From positions 1 to 64,000 of the IMG/VR virus record IMGVR_UViG_3300028030_000011: a stretch of DNA of 64,000 bases; one strand, written 5' to 3'. Both the position numbers and the translations under genes were made by a program. The stretch comes from a virus. Position 1 is the stretch's first letter. Every line of letters starts with the position of its first letter. A model generated the notes under the pieces. The model had not been told where the DNA came from, did no database searches, and worked only from the letters and a program-made list of their open reading frames with translations. Below, one piece after another: positions 3,858 through 58,546 of the stretch.

Positions 3858-3929
3858 GACTATTGATTATTGGAATTTCTAGTAATCAACTAAAAGGTAA
3901 ACAGAACCACCTCTACTCCCAACACTCAT

Positions 3930-4082
3930 CCATGAAGTTCAAAATGGATGGGATTGAAATTAAAATGTATTTTAAAGCAACCAAAGCAGGACACCGTAGG
4001 TGTTCTGTCGAAACCCTCGTAGAGTGGTTGGTTTAAAATATATTTTAATTTCAAGTCCATTTATTTTTTACTTCATGGACTT
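3930..4082 (+). ncRNA. Long imperfect hairpin with conserved internal motif (copy 1)
   Basis: This gap of 277 bp (3858-4134) is filled by one large foldback. Arms 3954-3983 and 4025-4054 pair over about 30 bp with one G.U and one mismatch; outer pieces CCATGAAG/CTTCATGG and AAATGGA/TCCATTT extend it. The tip is a hairpin, 3987-3995 with 3999-4007. Between tip and closing arm lies TCGAAACCCTCGTAGAG; its ACCCTCGTAGAG (4013-4024) recurs in copy 2. Both wobbles (in the arms and in the tip) are G.U only on the + strand, so the + strand is the likely functional one. It could be an RNA element or a single-strand initiation site. Confidence 0.55.
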
Positions 4083-4783: not shown

Positions 4784-4933
4784 TCTAGCCTAAGAAATCT
4801 TCAAAGATAAAAATGAAAAGGATAAATTTAAAAGATTTCTCTACGAGGGTAACACGAAACGCTTACAGCGTTCCGTACAAATCTTTCAAATTCATCCTTT
4901 TCATTTTCACTTCTTGCTTTCTTAGACTAGAAG
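4782..4933 (-). ncRNA. Long imperfect hairpin with conserved internal motif (copy 2)
   Basis: The gap 4741-5177 (437 bp) is largely this foldback. Outer arms 4782-4797 and 4918-4933 pair over 16 bp; inner arms 4810-4838 and 4879-4907 pair over 29 bp. The tip is AACGC/GCGTT. The 12-nt motif CTCTACGAGGGT (4839-4850) is the reverse complement of the motif in copy 1. All three flaws are A.C on the + strand but G.U on the - strand, so the - strand is probably functional, and on that strand motif order matches copy 1. The arms themselves are unrelated to those of copy 1. RNA or ssDNA function is inferred. Confidence 0.55.
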
Positions 4934-12439: not shown

Positions 12440-12802
12440 ATGAAAATCAAAACACTTGAAAAACTAATGACTTATGATGAAGCATTGGAGTATATTAATA
12501 ATCATCAAGATTATAGATTTCCAACACTAGAAGAAGCAAGAGAATTAGATTATGAATATCCATACTGGGTAGAAGGTGAAAAAAAACCTGATATGGATTA
12601 TGACAATGTTTTTCTTGCTCTTACAAATATGGGAGCAAGAAATGTTCTTTATAGATTGAAAATTGTAGTTATAAAAAAAGAAAGAACAATATATGTTGCT
12701 ATAAAATTTAAAAATGCATTCAGAATGTTATTGACATCAATATTTGGAATCAAATATAATTTTATGATTGGAAAACAAGAGTATGAATTCGTGAAAGAAT
12801 AA
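12440..12802 (+). CDS. Hypothetical protein (120 aa)
   Basis: Starts 2 bp after thyX with AAAGGAG upstream. The N-terminal half has a pattern common in small phage proteins (MTYDEALEYI, then FPTLEEARELDYEYPYWV). Function unknown. Confidence 0.6.
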   Translation: MKIKTLEKLMTYDEALEYINNHQDYRFPTLEEARELDYEYPYWVEGEKKPDMDYDNVFLALTNMGARNVLYRLKIVVIKKERTIYVAIKFKNAFRMLLTSIFGIKYNFMIGKQEYEFVKE

Positions 12803-12803
12803 T

Positions 12804-12813
12804 ATGTTATAAT
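12804..12813 (+). promoter_or_regulatory. Extended -10 promoter of the helicase leader
   Basis: ATGTTATAATTTTTATG matches the extended -10 pattern (TG, one base, TATAAT then T-run) found before the antirepressor cassettes on the other strand. It would start a transcript at about 12820, some 200 nt before the helicase start codon. Confidence 0.55.
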
Positions 12814-12837
12814 TTTTATGTTAAAACATAAGATTAT

Positions 12838-12870
12838 CCTCTTCTTAATTGAAGAGGGTATTAACTTTTT
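12838..12870 (+). terminator. Terminator or attenuator hairpin in the helicase leader
   Basis: CCTCTTC (12838-12844) pairs with GAAGAGG (12851-12857), followed by TATTAACTTTTT. It is a fair intrinsic terminator for the thyX operon, but it lies after the -10 box at 12808, so transcripts from that promoter also cross it. The T-run doubles as arm A of the pseudoknot, so pseudoknot and terminator may compete. Confidence 0.5.
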
Positions 12871-12957
12871 GAGGTTTACCAGACCATTGCAAATCTAGGA
12901 ATATCACTTGGTATTCCTCAAAGAGTTTTCTACAAAAGATGTAATAGTCTGGTAAAC
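12863..12957 (+). ncRNA. Pseudoknot leader RNA of the SF2 helicase
   Basis: Arms in order: A 12863-12874 (AACUUUUUGAGG), B 12874-12884 (GUUUACCAGAC), hairpin 12897-12903/12912-12918, A' 12916-12927, B' 12947-12957. A and A' pair over 12 bp with one U.G; B and B' pair perfectly over 11 bp. The order A-B-A'-B' makes an H-type pseudoknot. The hairpin 3' arm overlaps A', so the two pairings compete. The same layout precedes the - strand antirepressor genes, and the hairpin loop ACUUGGUA recurs in the leader at 49980. It ends about 60 nt before the ATG and does not cover the ribosome binding site. Confidence 0.7.
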
Positions 12958-13019
12958 TTACTTCTTTTTTCTCTTTAAAAAAATATAAAATTACTATTGT
13001 TACTTTAAAAAGGATAACT

Positions 13020-14825
13020 ATGAAGATACAACTATACGATTATCAACAAGAAGCTGTTGATGAAATAGAATCAGAGTTTATGCTTGGTTCAAATAAAGTT
13101 ATATTATCAGCATGTACCTCTTATGGAAAGACATTTACGTCATTATTCTATGCCATAGAGAATACAATGGGTAGGGTATTTATCTCTCTATCAATATCAG
13201 CTTTAGTAGACCAATTTATAGAATCTATCAACAAACTTGAATTTGAAGATTATGGAGTTGTTAAAAGAGGATATGAGCATCTATACAATCCACAAGCTAG
13301 AATCCAAATAATTATGGATAATAGTTTTGTTAATAAACTTACTGATTTTGGTAGAGATTGTGAATTGCTCATTATAGATGAAATACATGTTAGAATAACT
13401 GGTGATAGGATGAAACAAATAATTGGTTGGTTACAACCTGAATATATTTTAGGAATGTCAGGTACACCTTATGATTCACGAGGATTCATTATAACAGGTT
13501 TTACTACCATAGAGACAATAACACTTAAAGAGTTAACAGATAGGGGTAAATTGACTCCTATACGTTATTTTACTACTAAATTTGCAACAGAAGAGGATTT
13601 ATCTTGTTACACAATTAGTGGAGATGATTATAGTCAAGAATCTTTGTCAAATTTATATAGCTCTGATGAGTATATGCGTAAAATGGTAGATGCTTATAAA
13701 AACATTGGTGATAAAATTGATTTAAATCCATATAACTGTAAAAGTATATGGCTATGCAGCACTATAGAAGCTTGTAATAAGTTGGAGGCAAAACTACAAG
13801 ATAATGGATTTGAAATATATGCTTATCATGGTAAGTTATCAGATACTGAAAGTAAGCAGTTGATGCACTCATTTAGGACAGGAGAACCACTTCCACCACA
13901 AGCAAGAAATTTATTAAATTATAATACAAGAGAAGAAAATAGATATGTTAATGGGTTAATATCAGTTCAAAAGTTAGCTGTAGGATTTGATGTTCCTGAC
14001 ATAGATATTGGTGTTGCTTGTAGCACTACAAAAGTTCGTTCAAAAATTATGCAGTACTATGGAAGATTGTGTAGGAAATCACCAAAAAAAGAAACAGCAT
14101 ACTTCTTAGACTTTGGTCAAAATATTATGCTCCATGGCTTTGCTGATGAAGATTATAAACCACTTCCACCTGATGCTGATGTTGAAGAGATAAAAGAAAA
14201 CAAAAGAAAACATTCTCTTGAATATCTTGATATTGTGTTTGATGGTTCAATTGGTTTACTTGAAATAAATAGAGAATCATACGAACTTAAATTAAAAGAA
14301 ATGAAACAAGAAGGCAAATCATTGTCTGAGTTAACAATAGAAGAGCTTAAGAATAAATTTGCAATAGAAGAAGATTATCTTGAATTGATAATTATGATGT
14401 TTGCATTTGTAAATAAAGTATATGGGTATGACGGAAAAAATGATACTCGTAATTATAAATCAAAATCATGGGATAAGGAGAACAATAGAGAAAAAGAAAA
14501 GGTAAATTATAACTTTTATAATGAATCAAAAGTTGATTGGGTAAGTGAAACATGGATAAAACTTTTCGATAAATATGATGATAAATATCTTCATAGAAAA
14601 TGGACTAAAGCTCTTAAAACAAGAATTAGAAGTGTTGTAAATTCTCAAAAGAGTATCTATAGTATTAGATTCTTTGCAGAAAAGTTAGAAGAGTGGTATC
14701 TTGAAGAGCAAGATAAAGAAATTGAAGTAGTTTATGAACCATCTGAATTAGAGAAACAATTAGAACAACAATCACAAGATGTATTTGAATATGAAATAGA
14801 AATAGATGAATCTATTCCATTCTGA
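13020..14825 (+). CDS. SF2 DNA helicase (DEAD/DEAH, UvsW/Rad25-like)
   Basis: A 601-residue superfamily 2 helicase. Motif Q/I region starts at QLYDYQQEAVDEI; Walker A is ACTSYGKTFT (31-40); Walker B is IDEIH (about 121-125); motif III MSGTP (about 147); motif VI is YYGRLCRKSP (about 345-354), followed by AYFLDFGQN. These enzymes unwind or remodel branched DNA in replication and recombination. The C-terminal 200 residues are charged, helical and not recognised. AAAAAGGATAACT precedes the ATG. It is the only metabolic gene with the pseudoknot leader, and it starts the replication cluster. Confidence 0.88.
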   Translation: MKIQLYDYQQEAVDEIESEFMLGSNKVILSACTSYGKTFTSLFYAIENTMGRVFISLSISALVDQFIESINKLEFEDYGVVKRGYEHLYNPQARIQIIMDNSFVNKLTDFGRDCELLIIDEIHVRITGDRMKQIIGWLQPEYILGMSGTPYDSRGFIITGFTTIETITLKELTDRGKLTPIRYFTTKFATEEDLSCYTISGDDYSQESLSNLYSSDEYMRKMVDAYKNIGDKIDLNPYNCKSIWLCSTIEACNKLEAKLQDNGFEIYAYHGKLSDTESKQLMHSFRTGEPLPPQARNLLNYNTREENRYVNGLISVQKLAVGFDVPDIDIGVACSTTKVRSKIMQYYGRLCRKSPKKETAYFLDFGQNIMLHGFADEDYKPLPPDADVEEIKENKRKHSLEYLDIVFDGSIGLLEINRESYELKLKEMKQEGKSLSELTIEELKNKFAIEEDYLELIIMMFAFVNKVYGYDGKNDTRNYKSKSWDKENNREKEKVNYNFYNESKVDWVSETWIKLFDKYDDKYLHRKWTKALKTRIRSVVNSQKSIYSIRFFAEKLEEWYLEEQDKEIEVVYEPSELEKQLEQQSQDVFEYEIEIDESIPF

Positions 14826-26169: not shown

Positions 26170-26781
26170 TTATGCTAGTAGATTTTTAGCTTCTTCTATT
26201 TTAGTTTCATAGTAAGAAGCTATTTGTTTAAATTCTTCTTGCAATCTTTCAACCTCTGACTTCTGAGGCTTATTTGCTTTACACCATCTATCATAAGCAT
26301 TTCTTACTAAAGAAGAATCATAGGTTGGAGTATTATAAATCATTTTACCAACAGTACCATTTAATTCATCTGGTATTTCTCTTCTAACAGTTATTTTGGC
26401 TTTTGTTTGAGCTAATCCACTCCATACTAAAGCATCCCATACCTCAGTCTCCATTACATCATCTTCAATATCTTCAAATGTAGTACCTATACAACCTCTA
26501 ACACTCATATAGCCATTTTCATATACTTTTGGTTTTTTAGCTATTTTAACAGCTTGTTCTATAGTTGGTCTTAATTCTCCTTTTTTATCTGTATATTTAA
26601 CGGGCTGAAATTTCAGCTCGTTAAATCTTTCTTCATCAAGAGTTGAAATCATTTTATTGAAATCAGAAACTAAATTTTTATTCTCTTTTCCATATTGGTC
26701 AGCTACATCTTTTAATGTCATTTTAAATCCTGCATTTTGCAAGAAACTCTCTGTTGGTGTTAATTCGATTAAATCTTTCAT
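26170..26781 (-). CDS. Antirepressor-like protein with Rha-like N-terminus
   Basis: The N-terminus (about 19-50) reads MTLKDVADQYGKENKNLVSD, like the Rha HTH. From residue about 85 it shares a C-terminal domain with four other genes here: KPKVYENGYMSVRGCI, then an acidic helix with VWDALVWSGLA and a basic beta stretch (KITVRREIP). The shared pattern is [K/R]-x-hydrophobic-x-[D/N]-G-x-x-S-x-x-G. AAAGGATAAATCT precedes the ATG. Expected to act as a regulator; target unknown. Its leader (26842-27038) is a compound of two foldbacks. Confidence 0.62.
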   Translation of the reverse strand: MKDLIELTPTESFLQNAGFKMTLKDVADQYGKENKNLVSDFNKMISTLDEERFNELKFQPVKYTDKKGELRPTIEQAVKIAKKPKVYENGYMSVRGCIGTTFEDIEDDVMETEVWDALVWSGLAQTKAKITVRREIPDELNGTVGKMIYNTPTYDSSLVRNAYDRWCKANKPQKSEVERLQEEFKQIASYYETKIEEAKNLLA

Positions 26782-26849
26782 AGATTTATCCTTTAATTAA
26801 AAGTACGGACAATGATAAATTTTGTGAGAGTGAAGTTATGAAGAATCTT

Positions 26850-27032
26850 GTCCAGAGAGTTCTTCAAACTATATATACACTCATTTCAGGTTCAAAAGTA
26901 GTTTAGAGAGGTAAAGTTACCTCTCAAAGAACTCTCTGGACGAGAAATCAATGTATACAAAACAATAAGTTTACTCAATGGTATTCATCTCTGAATACCT
27001 AGAAAGTGGCTTGAACACCATTCAGTAAACTT
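26850..27032 (-). ncRNA. Compound structured leader RNA
   Basis: The 352-bp gap 26782-27133 holds two foldbacks. First (5' in the - transcript): arm A 27017-27032 pairs with A' 26967-26982 over 16 bp with one mismatch, enclosing a perfect hairpin at 26980-26999. Second: a perfect 15-bp stem, 26927-26941 with 26850-26864, enclosing GAGAGGTA/TACCTCTC. The A arm, the GGTGTTCAAGCC segment after it and the hairpin match the layout of the other leaders; a B' partner (TTTTGAAC) exists only inside the second stem. It looks like a pseudoknot leader with an insertion. Confidence 0.6.
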
Positions 27033-27133: not shown

Positions 27134-27736
27134 TTAGTTGTAATACTGCTTTAATAAATTTATTGCACTATCAAATTTTATATAAGGTGTTTGAAACTCA
27201 CCTCTAGTCTTCAATAAGCCATTGCAATCATTTTTCATGTGCCAATATCTAGTTGGTCTTATTGAATCTTCTATTGCTCCAAGTTTAACAAAGAACTCTT
27301 GTATTTGAGATTCTGTATAATCAGTTCTTTGTGCTATACCTCTTATAGAAGAATATCCATCAGAATCTATCATGCATAATTTCTTTTCTGATTTCAATAG
27401 TTTAATCTCTTCTTCTTTTGATGCTGTTAACATTTCATAAATAATATTATCACACCAAATTGCAAATTCTGGAGAAATCCATCTAGCAAATATAATCAAT
27501 AAACTATTATGGATTAATGTCTTTCCAACTATAGTTGTATTGATTAAGGTTCTTTTAACAGCGTTACATTTTTGTAACGCACTTAAATATTCCTTAACTC
27601 CTTTTGATTTTCTCCAATGAGTAAAATTTTTACCATGAGATTTAGCTATACCACTAACATCAATCATAAATTCTTTTTCATTGATTACCTCTATAGGCAA
27701 TACAGCTTCATTAAAAACTTTTACAAGTTCTTTCAT
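27134..27736 (-). CDS. KilA-N domain antirepressor-like protein
   Basis: KilA-N-type N-terminus: MIDVSGIAKSHGKNFTHWRK, then LLIIFARWISPEFAIWCDNI, the strongest family block. The C-terminal part carries the shared pattern DSDGYSSIRGIAQRT. ATG at 27736 has GGAAAG about 8 bp upstream; the frame is open to 27796 but without a better site. KilA-N proteins bind DNA; as phage regulators they often sit in variable copy number. The leader at 27779-27881 is a clean pseudoknot. Confidence 0.75.
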   Translation of the reverse strand: MKELVKVFNEAVLPIEVINEKEFMIDVSGIAKSHGKNFTHWRKSKGVKEYLSALQKCNAVKRTLINTTIVGKTLIHNSLLIIFARWISPEFAIWCDNIIYEMLTASKEEEIKLLKSEKKLCMIDSDGYSSIRGIAQRTDYTESQIQEFFVKLGAIEDSIRPTRYWHMKNDCNGLLKTRGEFQTPYIKFDSAINLLKQYYN

Positions 27737-27778: not shown

Positions 27779-27881
27779 GGTGTATGAAATCAACAATCAC
27801 AAATTAATAACTTAGAGGTATATGAAAATTGAGTAATTTCCATATACCAATTATTGGCTTCATACACCTCTAAGCTATTAA
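27779..27881 (-). ncRNA. Pseudoknot leader RNA, cassette 2
   Basis: In the - transcript: A 27881-27866, B 27868-27859, hairpin GGUAUAUG/CAUAUACC, A' 27819-27804, B' 27788-27779. A-A' is 16 bp with one G.U; B-B' (GGTGTATGAA with TTCATACACC) is a perfect 10 bp. The hairpin 3' arm overlaps A' by three bases. The A arm begins 4-5 bases after the -10 box, at about the predicted +1. Confidence 0.72.
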
Positions 27882-27885
27882 CAAA

Positions 27886-27935: not shown

Positions 27936-28667
27936 CTATGCTAACAGATTTTCATCAACATACTTTATTGCAGCGTTAGAGAATCTCTCTCTCAATTCAT
28001 CGGCTTCTTCTGATGTTGGTTTGCCATCTTGAATATATTTATAAACTAAATCATTTATGAATTTTAAATCAAATGTAGGTAGTCCATAACTAGTTCTTGA
28101 AGCCATCACATATTTAGCAATCTCATTATCTGTATCTATATCTCTTGATATTGTAATTTTAGGCATAGTCTTAACATACCCATAATGAACTAGCATATCC
28201 CATGCTTCATGTTCTTTTACTACTTCTATACCTTGCTCTTTCAATTCTACTAAACAACCCTTCAAACTCATAAAACCATTGTCATATACTTTTGGCTTTT
28301 TAGCATCTCTTATTGCTTTTGCCTTTTCTTTAGAAAATTCAATCCTTAAAGCATCTTCTCTAATCTTTTGAATTTCATCTCTCATAGTAAAAAATTGATT
28401 TACAAGTTCCTCTTTGAATTTTTCAGTAATTTCATTGTTTGGTAACAATGTTAAAAGTAAGGTACAAGATTTTTCATCAAACTTCATTTCAGAATAATTT
28501 AAGTCTTCCGACAAATCGTATGGATAACTTAATCCATTCTTAATCAACATATTTATCTTTCGTTTAACTATTTTCTTAACAGCTTCATCTCCAAGTTTAG
28601 AAAATTTAATAATAGTAGATAATTCTACAACAGCATTAGTGTTTTCAATAGTAATAAGATTTTGCAT
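27936..28667 (-). CDS. Rha-type N-terminus with shared antirepressor C-terminal domain
   Basis: The N-terminal half resembles pRha: DEKSCTLLLTLLPNNEITEK, then FKEELVNQFFTMRDEI, parallel to the gene at 22409. From residue about 140 it has the shared block KPKVYDNGFMSLKGCL, an acidic helix with AWDMLVHYGYV and PKITISRDI. The frame is open to 28721, but AAGAGGAATAAAG precedes the ATG at 28667, so this start is used. It shows that different N-terminal DNA-binding modules are joined to one C-terminal domain in this phage. Confidence 0.68.
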   Translation of the reverse strand: MQNLITIENTNAVVELSTIIKFSKLGDEAVKKIVKRKINMLIKNGLSYPYDLSEDLNYSEMKFDEKSCTLLLTLLPNNEITEKFKEELVNQFFTMRDEIQKIREDALRIEFSKEKAKAIRDAKKPKVYDNGFMSLKGCLVELKEQGIEVVKEHEAWDMLVHYGYVKTMPKITISRDIDTDNEIAKYVMASRTSYGLPTFDLKFINDLVYKYIQDGKPTSEEADELRERFSNAAIKYVDENLLA

Positions 28668-28711: not shown

Positions 28712-28819
28712 GATGTACCAAATCAATCCATAAACCTATTTAATATAGTAAACTCAAAGATGAACCAATTACGAGTGTAATTAGAACATCAAGATGATTT
28801 GGTACATCTTTCAATTTAC
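28712..28819 (-). ncRNA. Pseudoknot leader RNA, cassette 3
   Basis: In the - transcript: A 28819-28805, B 28808-28795, hairpin AATTAC/GTAATT (28767-28782), A' 28762-28748, B' 28725-28712. A-A' is 15 bp with one U.G and one mismatch; B-B' (GATGTACCAAATCA) is a perfect 14 bp. Order A-B-A'-B' gives a pseudoknot. The leader ends about 45 nt before the ATG. Confidence 0.72.
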
Positions 28820-48311: not shown

Positions 48312-49076
48312 CTATTTATCAGATAGATACTCTTCTAGTTGTCTTCTCATCTTAGTTTTAAAGTCTTGATTTACACATGGACTTCCTACTTTATTATATT
48401 GATTTATTATGGCTCTAACAGCATCTGGAATATAAGTATAATCTCTAGTAGCTTTTACACCATCTTTTTTAAATGTTTTAGACTTGTAGACTAAACCCAT
48501 ATAGTCATCATTCATTGTTGGTCTAGTTGTTATTTTAATGTCTACAGTCATAACCTCTTTCCACACCAAAGCATCTTTTATATAATCATAAGACTCTTGA
48601 AATCCATAATGTTGAATAAGACCTGTAATAGATGTTGTGCCATCATCATGCAATCTAACTTTATTTGCATCAGCTTCTATTTGAGCTATTTGCTGTTGAG
48701 CTTCTTCTAAGATTAGCATTTCATTTTTTTTAGATTCAAGTCGTATTTCATTTTTAATCCATCTATCACAAGCTACAGCAAAATCAGAAGAAATCCATCT
48801 TGCAAAATGGATTATTAAATCTGGATGAATATATGTTCCACCATACTTTCCTTGAATAGCTTGTTTTAACTCCGTAGATTTTACGGAGTTAAAATTACAT
48901 ACAGACTTCATATATTCTTGTGTATCTTGACTTTTCCAATAATTAGATAAATCTTTACCAAAAGTTTTAGAAACCTCTGTAGCATTTAACCATGCTCCAT
49001 TTTCTAATGCAAATTTAATATTTACATCAACTAAGTCTAATGTAGTGTTTGAGAAATTTTTTAATTGAATTTCCAT
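48312..49076 (-). CDS. KilA-N domain antirepressor-like protein
   Basis: Clear KilA-N domain at about 20-110: NGAWLNATEVSKTFGKDLSNY, then LKQAIQGKYGGTYIHPDLII and HFARWISSDFAVACDRWI. A helical linker leads to the shared C-terminal block KVRLHDDGTTSITGLIQHYG and a basic beta part. The ribosome binding site is weak (GAAAGTAATACTGTTAA). Paralogue of 49255. Expected DNA-binding regulator. Confidence 0.8.
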   Translation of the reverse strand: MEIQLKNFSNTTLDLVDVNIKFALENGAWLNATEVSKTFGKDLSNYWKSQDTQEYMKSVCNFNSVKSTELKQAIQGKYGGTYIHPDLIIHFARWISSDFAVACDRWIKNEIRLESKKNEMLILEEAQQQIAQIEADANKVRLHDDGTTSITGLIQHYGFQESYDYIKDALVWKEVMTVDIKITTRPTMNDDYMGLVYKSKTFKKDGVKATRDYTYIPDAVRAIINQYNKVGSPCVNQDFKTKMRRQLEEYLSDK

Positions 49077-49117: not shown

Positions 49118-49204
49118 AGAGGTTATCAAGCTTTCTAATCCTATTATACACTTAGAGGTTAGCATCTCTACTAACCGACTAGAAGGCTTGATAACCTCTA
49201 AATG
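49118..49204 (-). ncRNA. Pseudoknot leader RNA, cassette 4
   Basis: In the - transcript: A 49204-49193, B 49199-49186 (overlapping A), hairpin GGTTAG/CTAACC (49176-49157), A' 49160-49149, B' 49131-49118. A-A' is 12 bp with one U.G; B-B' (AGAGGTTATCAAGC) is a perfect 14 bp. The overlap of A and B means the full pairings compete, so part of each may form or the RNA may switch. Confidence 0.7.
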
Positions 49205-49212
49205 TCTTTAAA

Positions 49213-49240: not shown

Positions 49241-49261
49241 GAGTTAGTGTTTAGCTAACTC
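49241..49261 (-). terminator. GAGTTAG...CTAACTC terminator, copy 2
   Basis: Identical 21-bp hairpin; the stop codon of the KilA-N gene at 49255 lies inside it. Confidence 0.6.
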
Positions 49262-49935
49262 TTGTTTGATTGTCTTACATAATCAATTACAGCTTGTTTA
49301 ACGACTTGTGGATAGTATGTAGGTGCTTGTGTGCCTCTATCAGTACCTATATAGCTTGGAGTACCTTCTGGTAATCTTCTATACTTTGTAACTTTAGTAA
49401 TATCTTCATTCCACCCCTTAAATGTTAAAGCTTCCCAAACAAAGTCTTCTGATACATCTAATCCAGTATGTTGAATAACTCCTCTAACACTCATCGTACC
49501 ATCATCATAAATTTTACATTTCTTAGCATTAGCTACTGCTAACTGTTTTTCTTTCTCTGCTTGTTCTAATAGAGCTTCTGTTTTAATCTGATTTACTTTA
49601 ATCATTTCTGATTTAATAAATCTATCACACTCAATAGCAAATTTAGGAGAACACCATCTTGCAAAATGAACCACGAGTTCTGGGTGTAAATATGTTCCTT
49701 GTTGTTTTCCTTTACCTGTAACAACAATTTTAAGGTCACTGATTTTCAGTGAGCATAATTCTGCTAATTCAATCATATATTCTTCAGTATCTTTTGATGT
49801 GAAATAGTTATCAATACGCTTACCAAACTCTTTAGCTGTTGTTGTAGCATTAATCCATAAACCATTCTGTAATGCGAACATTACTTCTTTACTTGATATA
49901 GCTTCATTACTAAAGCTGTGTAATTCTAAATCCAT
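49255..49935 (-). CDS. KilA-N domain antirepressor-like protein
   Basis: KilA-N domain at about 18-108: NGLWINATTTAKEFGKRIDN, KIVVTGKGKQQGTYLHPELV and HFARWCSPKFAIECDRFI. Shared C-terminal block: KCKIYDDGTMSVRGVIQHTG and VWEALTFKGW. AGGAATCTATT precedes the ATG. Close paralogue of the neighbour at 48312, suggesting local duplication with its cassette. Confidence 0.8.
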   Translation of the reverse strand: MDLELHSFSNEAISSKEVMFALQNGLWINATTTAKEFGKRIDNYFTSKDTEEYMIELAELCSLKISDLKIVVTGKGKQQGTYLHPELVVHFARWCSPKFAIECDRFIKSEMIKVNQIKTEALLEQAEKEKQLAVANAKKCKIYDDGTMSVRGVIQHTGLDVSEDFVWEALTFKGWNEDITKVTKYRRLPEGTPSYIGTDRGTQAPTYYPQVVKQAVIDYVRQSNKS

Positions 49936-49979: not shown

Positions 49980-50074
49980 GAGTCCAATACGACCATCTAA
50001 ATAAATACCTTAGAGGAATACCCTTACCAAGTAGTAAAGAAATTCCAAGTCGGATTGGACTCCTCTAAAGTATT
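49980..50074 (-). ncRNA. Pseudoknot leader RNA, cassette 5
   Basis: In the - transcript: A 50074-50061, B 50062-50049, hairpin GGAAU/AUUCC around ACUUGGUAAGGG, A' 50017-50004, B' 49993-49980. A-A' is 14 bp with one U.G; B-B' is 14 bp with one mismatch. The hairpin loop and its 3' arm (ACUUGGUA then UAUUCCU) match the helicase leader at 12.9 kb, the clearest primary-sequence link within the family. Confidence 0.74.
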
Positions 50075-50142: not shown

Positions 50143-50916
50143 CTAGTTCTCCCCTAGCTCATCCATTGGTCTATATTTGGCTCCCCAACCCTTTACAGAC
50201 TTTCTAACACCTCTAAGAACTTTAGCCATATTGCTAGTAGTAGAACCAACGAACTCAGAAGCTTCTTTATTTGATGTGAATACTTTTTCTTCTCCTGTAT
50301 CATTGTTTGTTAGAATTATATCTCTACCAGAAATCTTAACTATTTTAGGAACAGCTTTCTCCTCCATCTTTCTATATGAGTACATATAGCCACCATGAAC
50401 TTGTCTACCCTCTTCTGTATTATTGTTTGTATCATTTGTTAAACACTCTGATACATGAGCAGTATTGAGCTTTAATAGTCTACAAGCTTCTATAGGGTTT
50501 CTATAGCTTCCTAAGTACTTTCCATCTAAAGCATCATATAAGAACACTCTCTTTGGTTTAGAAGCTATCTGTGAATTTTCTCCTAATGATATAACTCTAC
50601 AGTTATTTGGGGTATAATTCTTTAGTGGGTCTATTCTATCACATACAAGAGTTTGTTGGTTCGCACTACCAATTCTTGGAATATATCCACCAACTATCAT
50701 CCATCTAGCGTATGCAAAATAATCATATCTCCACTCATCACATACCTCAATACCTTTAGCTCCATACTTATGGTAATTACGGTCGTTCTCATTATGGCAT
50801 CTTCTATTCATAGTATTCCATATTCTTCTAAGTTTATGGTTCACTAACGACTTAGGGTCTGTCATGAGGTCATGAAGTAATTCTTCTGTTGTAAACTTTT
50901 CTACAAAATTAGCCAT
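50143..50916 (-). CDS. Free-standing HNH-type homing endonuclease with NUMOD1-like repeats
   Basis: The N-terminal 100 residues have the phage HNH layout: LRRIWNTMNRRCHNENDRNY, YGAKGIEVCDEWRYDY and DRIDPLKNYTPNNCRVISL. Two NUMOD1-like DNA-binding segments follow: GKYLGSYRNPIEACRLLKL (about 135-155) and EEKVFTSNKEASEFVGST (about 205-225). AAAGGATTAGC precedes the ATG. It sits downstream of the capsid gene as its own unit. Confidence 0.78.
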   Translation of the reverse strand: MANFVEKFTTEELLHDLMTDPKSLVNHKLRRIWNTMNRRCHNENDRNYHKYGAKGIEVCDEWRYDYFAYARWMIVGGYIPRIGSANQQTLVCDRIDPLKNYTPNNCRVISLGENSQIASKPKRVFLYDALDGKYLGSYRNPIEACRLLKLNTAHVSECLTNDTNNNTEEGRQVHGGYMYSYRKMEEKAVPKIVKISGRDIILTNNDTGEEKVFTSNKEASEFVGSTTSNMAKVLRGVRKSVKGWGAKYRPMDELGEN

Positions 50917-54855: not shown

Positions 54856-56556
54856 TTATAATGTTGCATTATCACTTCTGATTACACTAAAGCCTGTCTT
54901 ATCAAATATAGTTCCATTCCCAACAACGGTTGATTCTAAAGAGAAAGATACATAGTAATCACTAGGTAATTTAAATCTTAAATATAAATGGTCATCACTA
55001 CCAAGATAACTATCTACTTCTGTGAACACACCACTTCTATCCAAAGATTGTCTGTTTAGCAATGAGTTATTTGTAGAATAGACATACCCAACATATACAA
55101 TATCCAATATTGCAGACGCACCATACGCATACCCAATTACAGAGAAGTGGAACATTGCACTAAAGTCTATATTTAATGGTGTTCTTATATGAATATAATC
55201 ATTTGTAGCAGCAGAGTGAAAATGCTCTAGTATTCGTGTTCGTGTTCCTCTTATTGATTGAGATAATTGCATTGGATATTTCCAGCTACCCTTCCCATTA
55301 TCATCAGATGTGTACACTTTCCCATCTGATGCGTATTGTGGCTGGACTAGTCCTTTATCTGAATTGTAAATTTTCAAATCTCCATTTTTAATATTAACAA
55401 CATCTGCTACATCAAGGTATACATCAACTTCCGTACTCCCATTGCCATAACCAATATACATACCTCTAATATCATCAACATTTCTATATTCTGTGTATCC
55501 ATAATGCAACGCAGTATCATAAGTTGCTCTTATATATTTAGCATCTGGATGGATAAGTAGCTTACCATCTTTGTTGTATACTCCACTTCCAAGATGCAAA
55601 TTACCACCATTTATACTGCACAGACTGTCCTGTAGTTGACCATTTGAACCATCGAAAATTGGGATATGTTCATCAGTAGATGCAACTTTATCTACTTTAT
55701 TTGAGAGACTTGTACGTTCAATTTGTGTCATCCATTTTTTTGTTGTTGTCTCAGACACATCATCTGCTGTATGAACGTGTGTTGAATTTGATTTTAAATC
55801 CAATTCAGTTCTTACTGCTTTCTCGGTTGGGTACAATGTGTCATTTGAATTTGCTGTTCTTACTGATGTTGTCTTGTTTAATTTAAGTTCTCTATCATCT
55901 AACGCACTAGATAAACCAGCAATATTTCCAATAGATAATGTATCTAAATCATCTTTATTTTGTTTTATAAAATCAACAATTTCTTGTAGCTCATCCAATG
56001 TGGCATCATCACTAAGTAGTAACGTAGTAATGTCATCAATTAAGCCTTTCAGTATTCTAAGTTGATTTGCACTACCAGCTTTATCTGTATCATTACTAGT
56101 TAGATTATCTTTGATGTCATTTAATCTAGCTAGAGTATTTTCGGCTACTGTTGTAAAACTAGCTGTTGTAGCATCAAGAATTAACGAATTAGCATGTGTA
56201 TGTTCATTGTTTACGGCATCTGTAGTATCAAGATTTGGAACATTACCTAATCCAACCTTCTCTTTAGTTACATCATTTAATGTTGTCTCTGACGTATAAT
56301 ACCCAATTTTTTGCTCTCCTCTTTGTTGAGAGTTTAAATGGTATACCCATACAGTAGAACCAACTAGCATGTCCTCATTATATTTAATTGTAGTGTCTAC
56401 AATCGTATTATATGTATCTAAATCATCAGGGTTGTCAGAAACATATAGGTTGCCAATAAATTTATTGTCATTAATTATCGTAACAAAATTACCTTCATTT
56501 ACATTGAATTCTCTTTTGACTCCATGCTCATGCAATAAAAACTTATTTGGTATCAT
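54856..56556 (-). CDS. Tail fibre-like protein (566 aa)
   Basis: The N-terminal 95 residues resemble those of the protein at 61795: FIGNLYVSDNPDDLDTY and VWVYHLNSQQRGEQKIGYY, a probable virion-attachment module. A fibre-type linker follows (KVGLGNVPNLDTTDAVN, then YPTEKAVRTELDLKS). The C-terminal third is a beta-rich receptor or trimerisation region. It overlaps the portal stop by 14 bp. Confidence 0.7.
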   Translation of the reverse strand: MIPNKFLLHEHGVKREFNVNEGNFVTIINDNKFIGNLYVSDNPDDLDTYNTIVDTTIKYNEDMLVGSTVWVYHLNSQQRGEQKIGYYTSETTLNDVTKEKVGLGNVPNLDTTDAVNNEHTHANSLILDATTASFTTVAENTLARLNDIKDNLTSNDTDKAGSANQLRILKGLIDDITTLLLSDDATLDELQEIVDFIKQNKDDLDTLSIGNIAGLSSALDDRELKLNKTTSVRTANSNDTLYPTEKAVRTELDLKSNSTHVHTADDVSETTTKKWMTQIERTSLSNKVDKVASTDEHIPIFDGSNGQLQDSLCSINGGNLHLGSGVYNKDGKLLIHPDAKYIRATYDTALHYGYTEYRNVDDIRGMYIGYGNGSTEVDVYLDVADVVNIKNGDLKIYNSDKGLVQPQYASDGKVYTSDDNGKGSWKYPMQLSQSIRGTRTRILEHFHSAATNDYIHIRTPLNIDFSAMFHFSVIGYAYGASAILDIVYVGYVYSTNNSLLNRQSLDRSGVFTEVDSYLGSDDHLYLRFKLPSDYYVSFSLESTVVGNGTIFDKTGFSVIRSDNATL

Positions 56557-58546
56557 TTTTACTCTCCTGTTTAATTTTCTCTATTGTAGCTTGTTTTGCT
56601 ACATCTTCTGTTGCTTCACTACCATCAATTTTTCTTGTAAACTCTAAATCATCTAAATCAGCTTTTGAACCAGCTTGTTTAGCCATAGCAAGATAGTGTT
56701 CAGCCTGAGCTTTCTCTTTATATATTTTAGCTTTTTGCTCTTCTAATTGCAACTGTTGCATCTCTTGCATGAATTGGTCAGGTTGAGGTTTGAAGTTTAG
56801 TATAGCTTTACTCATTGACTCTTCGCCATCAAGTCTACTTATTTGTGCTTGGTAGATTCTTCTTTCTCTCTCATCCATATTATTACCTGTAGTCTGTAAT
56901 AAGAATGCTAATCGTTCAGCTTTTGCTGCTCTAATCTCAGGAGATGATATATTTATATTCATACCAAATAATGGTTGGTATTGAGTTCTCTCTATAAATA
57001 ATTGTTCAGAACCTGTTTTTAACATTATCTCTTCATCAGATAGTAACTCTATATCTAATCTAGCAACTTTTATTGCTAACTTTTTAAGACCACTAGCTAA
57101 TCTTCTAAGTATTGAAGCTTCTCTTTTAGATACAGCATCTACTGCACTTCTAACACCTGTAGCTGTACTTCCCATAGAATCACCTGTGATACCATTAGAG
57201 CTAAAAGCTTTAACTCCTGTAAGGCTCTCAGCTTCATTGTTAAACGTTCCTATTAGCCAAGGTACTATCTGTGGTATATCTTCAAAATTTTGAGTATATA
57301 TAGCTTCCTGTGGATTATGTTCAGGATTTATCTCACAATCTTCTCCAGCTTGTAATTTATGTCTATTGTATCTATCAAAAGCACCTTTTCTATATATCTT
57401 TTGTCCTAATGCTTTTTTACCTGTTAAATCAATAACTCCTCTTAATATAGCTGATATAATATCTTGATTATCAGTTATCAAATCAGTAGGACTATCTCCA
57501 TAATTACTATTTACTTTTGGCAAACATTGAACCAACTCAAATGGTAACTCATGAAGAGGATATGGATTTTTCTCCATCCTAACTATAGTTTCATTTATCC
57601 ATGATATAACAACTGGTTCAGATACTCCATCATTATCAATATCATAATATCCCCAATATTCATTTACTATTAACTCTTTATTTGGAATATGAGCTACTCC
57701 ATTTGATTGTAACCAATCAAGTTCAGCTGTCAATGAAAAATCTTCAGGAACAACAGCTAAGTCTCCAACTGTTAGTTTACTTAAATTAAAATATCTACCA
57801 TCCTCTTTTAAATCAGATAATGTACTTCTGAATCTATGTCTTACATATTTAGCTTTAGATATATCTCCTTTTGCTGATGGGTCAATAGTTACGTTTTCAA
57901 TATCACAAAACTCAAATACAGGTTGATTTCTTACCACTATCTCTCTAACGACAGTCATTGAACCATCTCCATTGTTTGGCGATATAATATCAGTATAAGT
58001 ATCCATATCATATTCCTCAATTGGAATAATTAATTCATCTCTTTTAATCTCTCTATCCCAAGAAATTTTTATAATTGATGTTCCATCATCTACTGTTTTA
58101 GCAATGTATCGTGTAAGGAAATCATCATAATCATTCTCTTTTGTGAATTGAAAATTTAATAAATCTTGCAATTGAAAGAGAGCCAATCTATTCATTGGCA
58201 TTGAATCGCTTAATTCAAACAATGCATCATTTTGTGTTAACGCTGCTTCTAAATTTGGATATTGCCATGTAGATTGTTTTTTAACTAATCTATATACAAA
58301 TTTAGAACCATTATCAGAAGTATCGAAATTAATTTCACCATCTCTGTAACTATGCCATTCAATTATCTTGGAAAGCTGAGCCATAAGCTCATTCTCTCCA
58401 GATTGCATTTCATCATTTAGATTGTCAATAGTTGGTATATTCTTCCAATCTACTTTTAGATTCCCATTATCATTATAATGTTTATCTATTTTGTAGTCAT
58501 TTTCTTTATTTTCAATATCGTATGTTTTTTCTATTTTTTTAGACAT
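56543..58546 (-). CDS. Portal protein, N4 gp59/P22-like
   Basis: 667 residues. The N-terminal part contains STWQYPNLEAALTQND and DFLTRYIAKTVDDGTSIIKI; the middle FEFCDIENVTIDPSAKGDIS and later LRGVIDLTGKKALGQKIYRK; the C-terminal helices (EEQKAKIYKEKAQAEHYLA) would form the barrel. These features match portals of N4- and P22-like phages. It forms the DNA entry vertex of the head. Confidence 0.8.
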   Translation of the reverse strand: MSKKIEKTYDIENKENDYKIDKHYNDNGNLKVDWKNIPTIDNLNDEMQSGENELMAQLSKIIEWHSYRDGEINFDTSDNGSKFVYRLVKKQSTWQYPNLEAALTQNDALFELSDSMPMNRLALFQLQDLLNFQFTKENDYDDFLTRYIAKTVDDGTSIIKISWDREIKRDELIIPIEEYDMDTYTDIISPNNGDGSMTVVREIVVRNQPVFEFCDIENVTIDPSAKGDISKAKYVRHRFRSTLSDLKEDGRYFNLSKLTVGDLAVVPEDFSLTAELDWLQSNGVAHIPNKELIVNEYWGYYDIDNDGVSEPVVISWINETIVRMEKNPYPLHELPFELVQCLPKVNSNYGDSPTDLITDNQDIISAILRGVIDLTGKKALGQKIYRKGAFDRYNRHKLQAGEDCEINPEHNPQEAIYTQNFEDIPQIVPWLIGTFNNEAESLTGVKAFSSNGITGDSMGSTATGVRSAVDAVSKREASILRRLASGLKKLAIKVARLDIELLSDEEIMLKTGSEQLFIERTQYQPLFGMNINISSPEIRAAKAERLAFLLQTTGNNMDERERRIYQAQISRLDGEESMSKAILNFKPQPDQFMQEMQQLQLEEQKAKIYKEKAQAEHYLAMAKQAGSKADLDDLEFTRKIDGSEATEDVAKQATIEKIKQESKNDTK

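Follow-up and report, generated by a model that had tools for sequence, protein, structure and literature searches.

A pseudoknot leader RNA family of N4-like phages at KilA-N/Rha-type genes and at a helicase gene

The window analysed here comprises 64,000 nucleotides of a 76,293-base viral record (G000), which belongs to an N4-like phage with a genomic G+C content of 30%. The record harbors an SU10/N4-type portal gene (56543-58546, minus strand; E = 2e-92), the best phage matches being N4-like podoviruses at about 34%, and encodes a protein of 3,626 amino acids, which is the size of a virion RNA polymerase. The low G+C content and the extended -10 promoters described below would suit Campylobacterota as host, which is only a guess. 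On the plus strand an SF2 helicase gene is located at 13020-14825 (Pfam ResIII, 5.8e-14, and Helicase_C, 5.6e-7; phrog_16, 5e-46), followed by genes for a PD-(D/E)XK nuclease and a primase-like protein. The early region contains two long inverted repeats between genes, one at 3929-4079 (85% complementarity over 55 nt) and one at 4810-4907 (93% over 29 nt).

Anatomy of the helicase leader

The region upstream of the helicase gene contains two interleaved stems around a small hairpin, in the order A-B-hairpin-A'-B'. Segment A (AACUUUUUGAGG, 12863-12874) forms 12 pairs with A' (CCUCAAAGAGUU, 12916-12927), namely 11 Watson-Crick pairs and one G.U, and segment B (GUUUACCAGAC, 12874-12884) forms 11 Watson-Crick pairs with B' (GUCUGGUAAAC, 12947-12957), which lies 62 nt 5' of the helicase ATG. 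All four segments are thus present in the sequence as the first-pass annotation had given them, including the single U.G in A and the perfect pairing of B. Stem B can be continued by further pairs out to 12891/12940 with two mismatches. The inner hairpin (12897-12918, -9.4 kcal/mol alone) carries an ACUU tetraloop at 12906-12909 closed by a C-G pair. Its last three pairs use the bases CCU 12916-12918, which also belong to A', so that the complete pseudoknot retains the upper part of the hairpin only. Nested folding of the helicase leader favours B:B' alone; that A:A' and B:B' form together is inferred from conservation rather than from computed folding. Downstream of B' follows a G-poor, A/U-rich spacer (12958-13009) with no G in its first 30 nt and an AUUGUU box at 12996-13001, and then the Shine-Dalgarno sequence AAGGA (13010-13014), which is unpaired in the pseudoknot.

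An extended -10 element had been reported upstream of the fold. It is indeed present as TGTTATAAT at 12805-12813. Across the 76 kb of the genome, only seven intergenic positions match TGnTATAAT exactly, this one among them, and five of the seven are located at leaders, the helicase leader included. However, it is separated from A by 50 nt, as opposed to 3-8 nt at most other leaders, and two further elements lie 5' of the fold. These are a sigma70-type promoter match within the 3' end of the upstream gene (TTGACA-18-TATAAT, 12731-12760, 12/12 consensus positions) and a terminator-like hairpin (12835-12860) in the interval between the promoters and the pseudoknot, whose weak U tract overlaps A.

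A leader family maintained by compensatory change

Five genes on the minus strand are preceded by leaders of the same organization. All encode KilA-N or Rha-like regulators with a common C-terminal region. The leader of the KilA-N gene 49255-49935 spans 49980-50074 (A 50074-50062, B 50062-50054, A' 50016-50004, B' 49988-49980; UACUUG loop, score 55), that of the KilA-N gene 48312-49076 spans 49121-49205 (A 49205-49195, B 49196-49186, A' 49158-49148, B' 49131-49121; GAGA loop, score 58), that of the Rha-like gene 27936-28667 spans 28712-28819 (A 28819-28808, B 28808-28795, A' 28759-28748, B' 28725-28712; CACUCG loop, score 48.5) and that of the KilA-N gene 27134-27736 spans 27779-27882 (A 27882-27867, B 27868-27859, A' 27818-27803, B' 27789-27779; UACUCA loop, score 62). 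The Rha-like gene 26170-26781 harbors a complete, ribosome-site-proximal unit at 26846-26959 (score 63.5) and, upstream of it at 26967-27032, a truncated unit that retains A, a GAGA-loop hairpin and A' but has lost B'. One and the same terminator-like stretch, GAGUUAGCUAAACACUAACUC, occurs at 48310-48265, 49255-49225 and 50143-50100 on the minus strand, each time 3' of a gene, and at two of these three sites lies directly 5' of the next leader promoter, as if gene cassettes had been duplicated. The KilA-N genes are adjoined by an HNH/I-HmuI-like homing endonuclease gene (50143-50916, minus strand) without a leader.

The scores given above refer to a descriptor which rates two interleaved stems in a split-point form, with first-order Markov-shuffled sequence as control. 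A strict search for contiguous stems was dropped, as known leaders escaped it owing to the overlap of B with A and to G.U pairs within the stems. The helicase leader scores 58.0, compared with a maximum of 51.5 among the 26 above-threshold matches in shuffled sequence (706,335 bases, both strands). Among 50 gene starts tested in the genome, six (13020, 49935, 49076, 28667, 27736 and 26781) are preceded by a unit scoring at least 48 and ending 42-64 nt 5' of the start; in the same scan the descriptor found no unit at the early-strand Rha/antirepressor-like gene 22409. Rfam yielded no gathering-score match in the window; a threshold of E<=10 added nothing but weak matches attributable to chance, most of them with families of miRNAs and snoRNAs. 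The pattern TTAGAGGTnnnCAAGCC occurred in 119 stretches of the viral contigs scanned, none of them with the fold.

Searches of viral contigs for KilA-N/Rha proteins led to contigs G003, G004, G005 and G006, while G001 was found via its portal; the portal family is common to G001, G004, G005 and G006, and G001 and G003, judged by their shared end sequence, probably represent one phage. Twelve further units were obtained from G003, G004 and G005. The leader family numbers about 18 copies, diverse in sequence, from four N4-like phages. Two genome scans revealed no relatives of the KilA-N/Rha family in the bacterial genomes covered. Two family members are decayed, one at G005:38265, where the leader passes straight into coding sequence, and one at G006:5140, with a stop in frame and no visible leader. 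Related units with UUUA loops and TTGACA/TATAAT-like promoters 5' of them occur away from KilA-N/Rha genes at G005:14698-14794 (plus strand) and, outside the window, at 70622-70527 (minus strand) of G000, the latter preceding the RepL-like gene 70291 (weak match).

Pairing was counted on segmented leaders because a MAFFT alignment of the leaders misplaced the stems. Stem A is paired in 261 of 266 cells and stem B in 194 of 196, with four to five standard pair types at each of the first eight columns of B; three G004 units pair weakly in B. The leader's own B' is the best partner of its B in 16 of 19 leaders, and the observed pairing sum was reached in none of 20,000 permutations, which are not fully independent as part of the leader set had been found with the pairing-demanding descriptor. 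The window units and the scan of 50 starts are independent of this pairing-selected sampling. Since B pairs with its own B' while the sequences differ, the fold is maintained by compensatory change.

Within the family stem A usually comprises 10-17 bp and stem B 8-17 bp. The inner hairpin is capped by C-ACUU-G at the helicase and in three more leaders, by C-ACUC-G in three, or else by U-ACUU-G, U-ACUC-A or A-ACUU-U. The ACUU/ACUC tetraloop recurs on differing stem sequences; exceptions are GAGA loops in two units, UUUA loops in two and three units in which a long A occurs without a hairpin. The match noticed earlier between the helicase hairpin and the leader at 49980 is real, C-ACUU-G corresponding to U-ACUU-G, with GGUA and UAUUCCU after them, and it recurs in other phages. 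The distance from B' to the start codon is 37-69 nt, with one outlier of at least 104 nt at gene 70291, for which the start codon is uncertain. The spacer contains 1.35 G per 30 nt, compared with 3.3 for other upstream sequence between genes (p = 2.5e-5), and an AUUGUY box is present at 7 of 14 leader genes versus 3 of 200 others (p = 1e-7). The helicase leader displays the A-B-A'-B' pseudoknot, the host-type -10, the ACUU loop, the G-poor spacer and the AUUGUY box and consequently belongs to the KilA-N/Rha leader family; fold, tetraloop, promoter class and 3' box agree with the earlier proposal of one leader type at the helicase and the minus-strand genes.

Certain features of the stems would also fit a co-transcriptional switch, in which A' and B' compete for bases at the junction and the winning helix sets elongation or translation. 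The junction (GAGG and neighbouring bases) is able to pair in both helices of many leaders, stem A of the 27736 leader can extend across the B region, and the terminator-like hairpin at the helicase lies just 5' of the fold. On the other hand, no U-tract terminator follows B' among the leaders read, and a terminator-like hairpin between promoter and fold is found at the helicase only, hence we consider such an attenuator improbable.

Exchange of leaders and their absence at related helicases

Leaders move from one paralogous gene to another. That of gene 49935 shares 84% identity with the one before G003:184, yet these genes are not orthologous, the orthologue of 49935 being G003:3452 (84% protein identity) and that of 28667 being G003:184. 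At 26781, the unit which is intact before the orthologous gene G003:1216, and whose sequence is the same as that of the intact unit at G003:1046, is reduced to A-hairpin-A', and a different complete unit adjoins the gene. The tandem of G003 (~985-1146) follows the same pattern with another unit, its upstream member at ~985 being devoid of B'. In both tandem arrays, at 27032 of G000 and at ~985 of G003, it is therefore the 5' unit that has lost B' and the ribosome-site-proximal unit that is intact.

A part of the leader in replication control finds no support. The nearest relatives of the helicase, in G003 (39%) and G005 (31%), start within an upstream ORF with no room for a leader, while both phages do have leaders at their own KilA-N/Rha genes. 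The helicase gene is thus kept and the fold is missing, the outcome that the first-pass annotation had itself named as refuting its proposal. Among the available relatives, the replication module does not include the helicase leader as a conserved component. Among 42 helicase-relative loci, those beyond G003 and G005 encode distant SF2 helicases; the few A+T-rich ones lack an upstream unit, and many are G+C-rich, where the descriptor yields chance matches. G003 and G005 are not close relatives, so loss and gain of the leader at the helicase are indistinguishable, but on these comparisons it looks as though this lineage had recruited to the helicase a leader that normally stands before antirepressor-type genes. 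The leader constitutes a real, previously undescribed leader-RNA family and not a conserved replication switch.

Such mobility might also be expected of a passive cassette border, if promoter-leader units recombined together with antirepressor genes and one of them landed before the helicase without regulatory consequence. Leaders are shuffled among paralogues, tandem units are truncated, and in G003 AntA and Rha antirepressor genes without leaders lie between the nuclease and the helicase (G003:33943-35539; L028:14443-16039, minus strand). Both stems show compensatory change, however, and loop, box and spacer have been kept, which implies that the RNA is under selection and makes this explanation a poor prospect.

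Possible function and comparison with known systems

Control of translation initiation is indicated by the position of the intact unit in the tandem arrays, by the narrow range of start distances and by the lack of structure in the spacer. Tentatively, and with rather less than even confidence, we favour a cis-acting pseudoknot leader family of N4-like phages that was acquired by the helicase gene and controls translation initiation as does the T4 gene 32 operator. The anatomy, the compensatory change, the recurrence of the leader and its absence at related helicases are shown by the sequences, the mode of control being inferred. The usual genes of the family, KilA-N/Rha-type regulators, would be read from host-type extended -10 promoters, and in their RNAs 37-69 nt of unstructured A/U-rich sequence separate the pseudoknot from the start codon. 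The structured element would seat a putative RNA-binding factor, with the conserved ACUY tetraloop as the likely recognition point, and this factor would spread over, or clear, the spacer and the ribosome site. Counting against this explanation, the ribosome site is unpaired in the fold, the ACUY loop is not universal, and nested folding at the helicase favours B:B' alone.

The putative factor is probably a shared one, since leaders pass from gene to gene; together with the common loop, this exchange makes the idea plausible. The suggestion of a single factor for the helicase and the minus-strand genes stands in part, as leader exchange is more readily reconciled with a putative common factor, or with some generic function, than with a separate regulator for every gene. 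A full RNA regulon, in which one phage or host RNA-binding factor recognises ACUY-capped leaders exchanged by recombination and sets the translation of the unlinked KilA-N/Rha genes and of the helicase, seems rather unlikely.

Alternatively, the leader could protect the mRNA. In most leaders TATAAT is followed by A at a distance of 3-8 nt, which places the predicted +1 at or near the first paired base, as in the known class of 5'-terminal mRNA stabilisers; transcripts would then start in stem A and the pseudoknot would block 5'-end-dependent decay by RppH/RNase E or the 5'-3' exonuclease RNase J. The location of stem A is the best argument for such protection, with which the unsequestered ribosome site agrees. 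The argument fails at the helicase, where the copy is internal with A ~42 nt from the predicted transcript start, and in the two tandem arrays, where the 5'-terminal unit has lost B' and the proximal one is kept intact. Nor would this role account for the spacer or for an AUUGUY box close to the start codon, and we regard a stabiliser as rather unlikely.

The C4 antisense RNA of P1/P7/P22-type antirepressor operons pairs with a downstream ribosome site. Structured RNA beginning antirepressor transcripts resembles this arrangement and would be compatible with a free or trans-acting RNA cut from the transcript, either of C4 type or similar to type III antitoxin RNAs. Contrary to C4, the leaders have no Rfam match and pair with themselves, B having its partner in its own B', which ends 37-69 nt 5' of the start, and the ribosome site remaining free without C4-type complementarity. 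Contrary to type III systems, they are single or double units of ~100 nt rather than short tandem repeats, and the proteins downstream are KilA-N/Rha-type or the helicase and not ToxN/CptN/TenpN nucleases. A free RNA is accordingly very improbable. The promoters of the N4 virion RNA polymerase take the form of short hairpins in single-strand DNA, located 5' of +1 and having a loop of 3 nt. Although these are likewise hairpin elements 5' of genes in N4-like phages, the leaders are ~100 nt long, lie 3' of a sigma70-type -10 and contain interleaved stems, of 12 bp and 11 bp at the helicase.

Pseudoknots are rarely found as operators in the mRNA leaders of phages. In the operator of T4 gene 32, the pseudoknot is succeeded by A+U-rich sequence that covers the ribosome site, and a 2010 review named this element as possibly the sole viral pseudoknot used in translational autoregulation (PMC3014915). 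The leader family offers a clear record of compensatory change together with movement from gene to gene, which renders the role of the fold testable with simple reporters, and it provides a lead to the control of multiple KilA-N/antirepressor paralogues in N4-like phages. The leaders share with the T4 operator a pseudoknot 5' of the start codon, an unstructured A+U-rich stretch to the ribosome site and a location adjoining replication functions. In T4, however, one small H-type pseudoknot serves one autoregulated SSB gene, whereas the family described here comprises large pseudoknots with an inserted hairpin before several unrelated genes on both strands, encoding an SF2 helicase, KilA-N and Rha-like proteins, none of which is an SSB.
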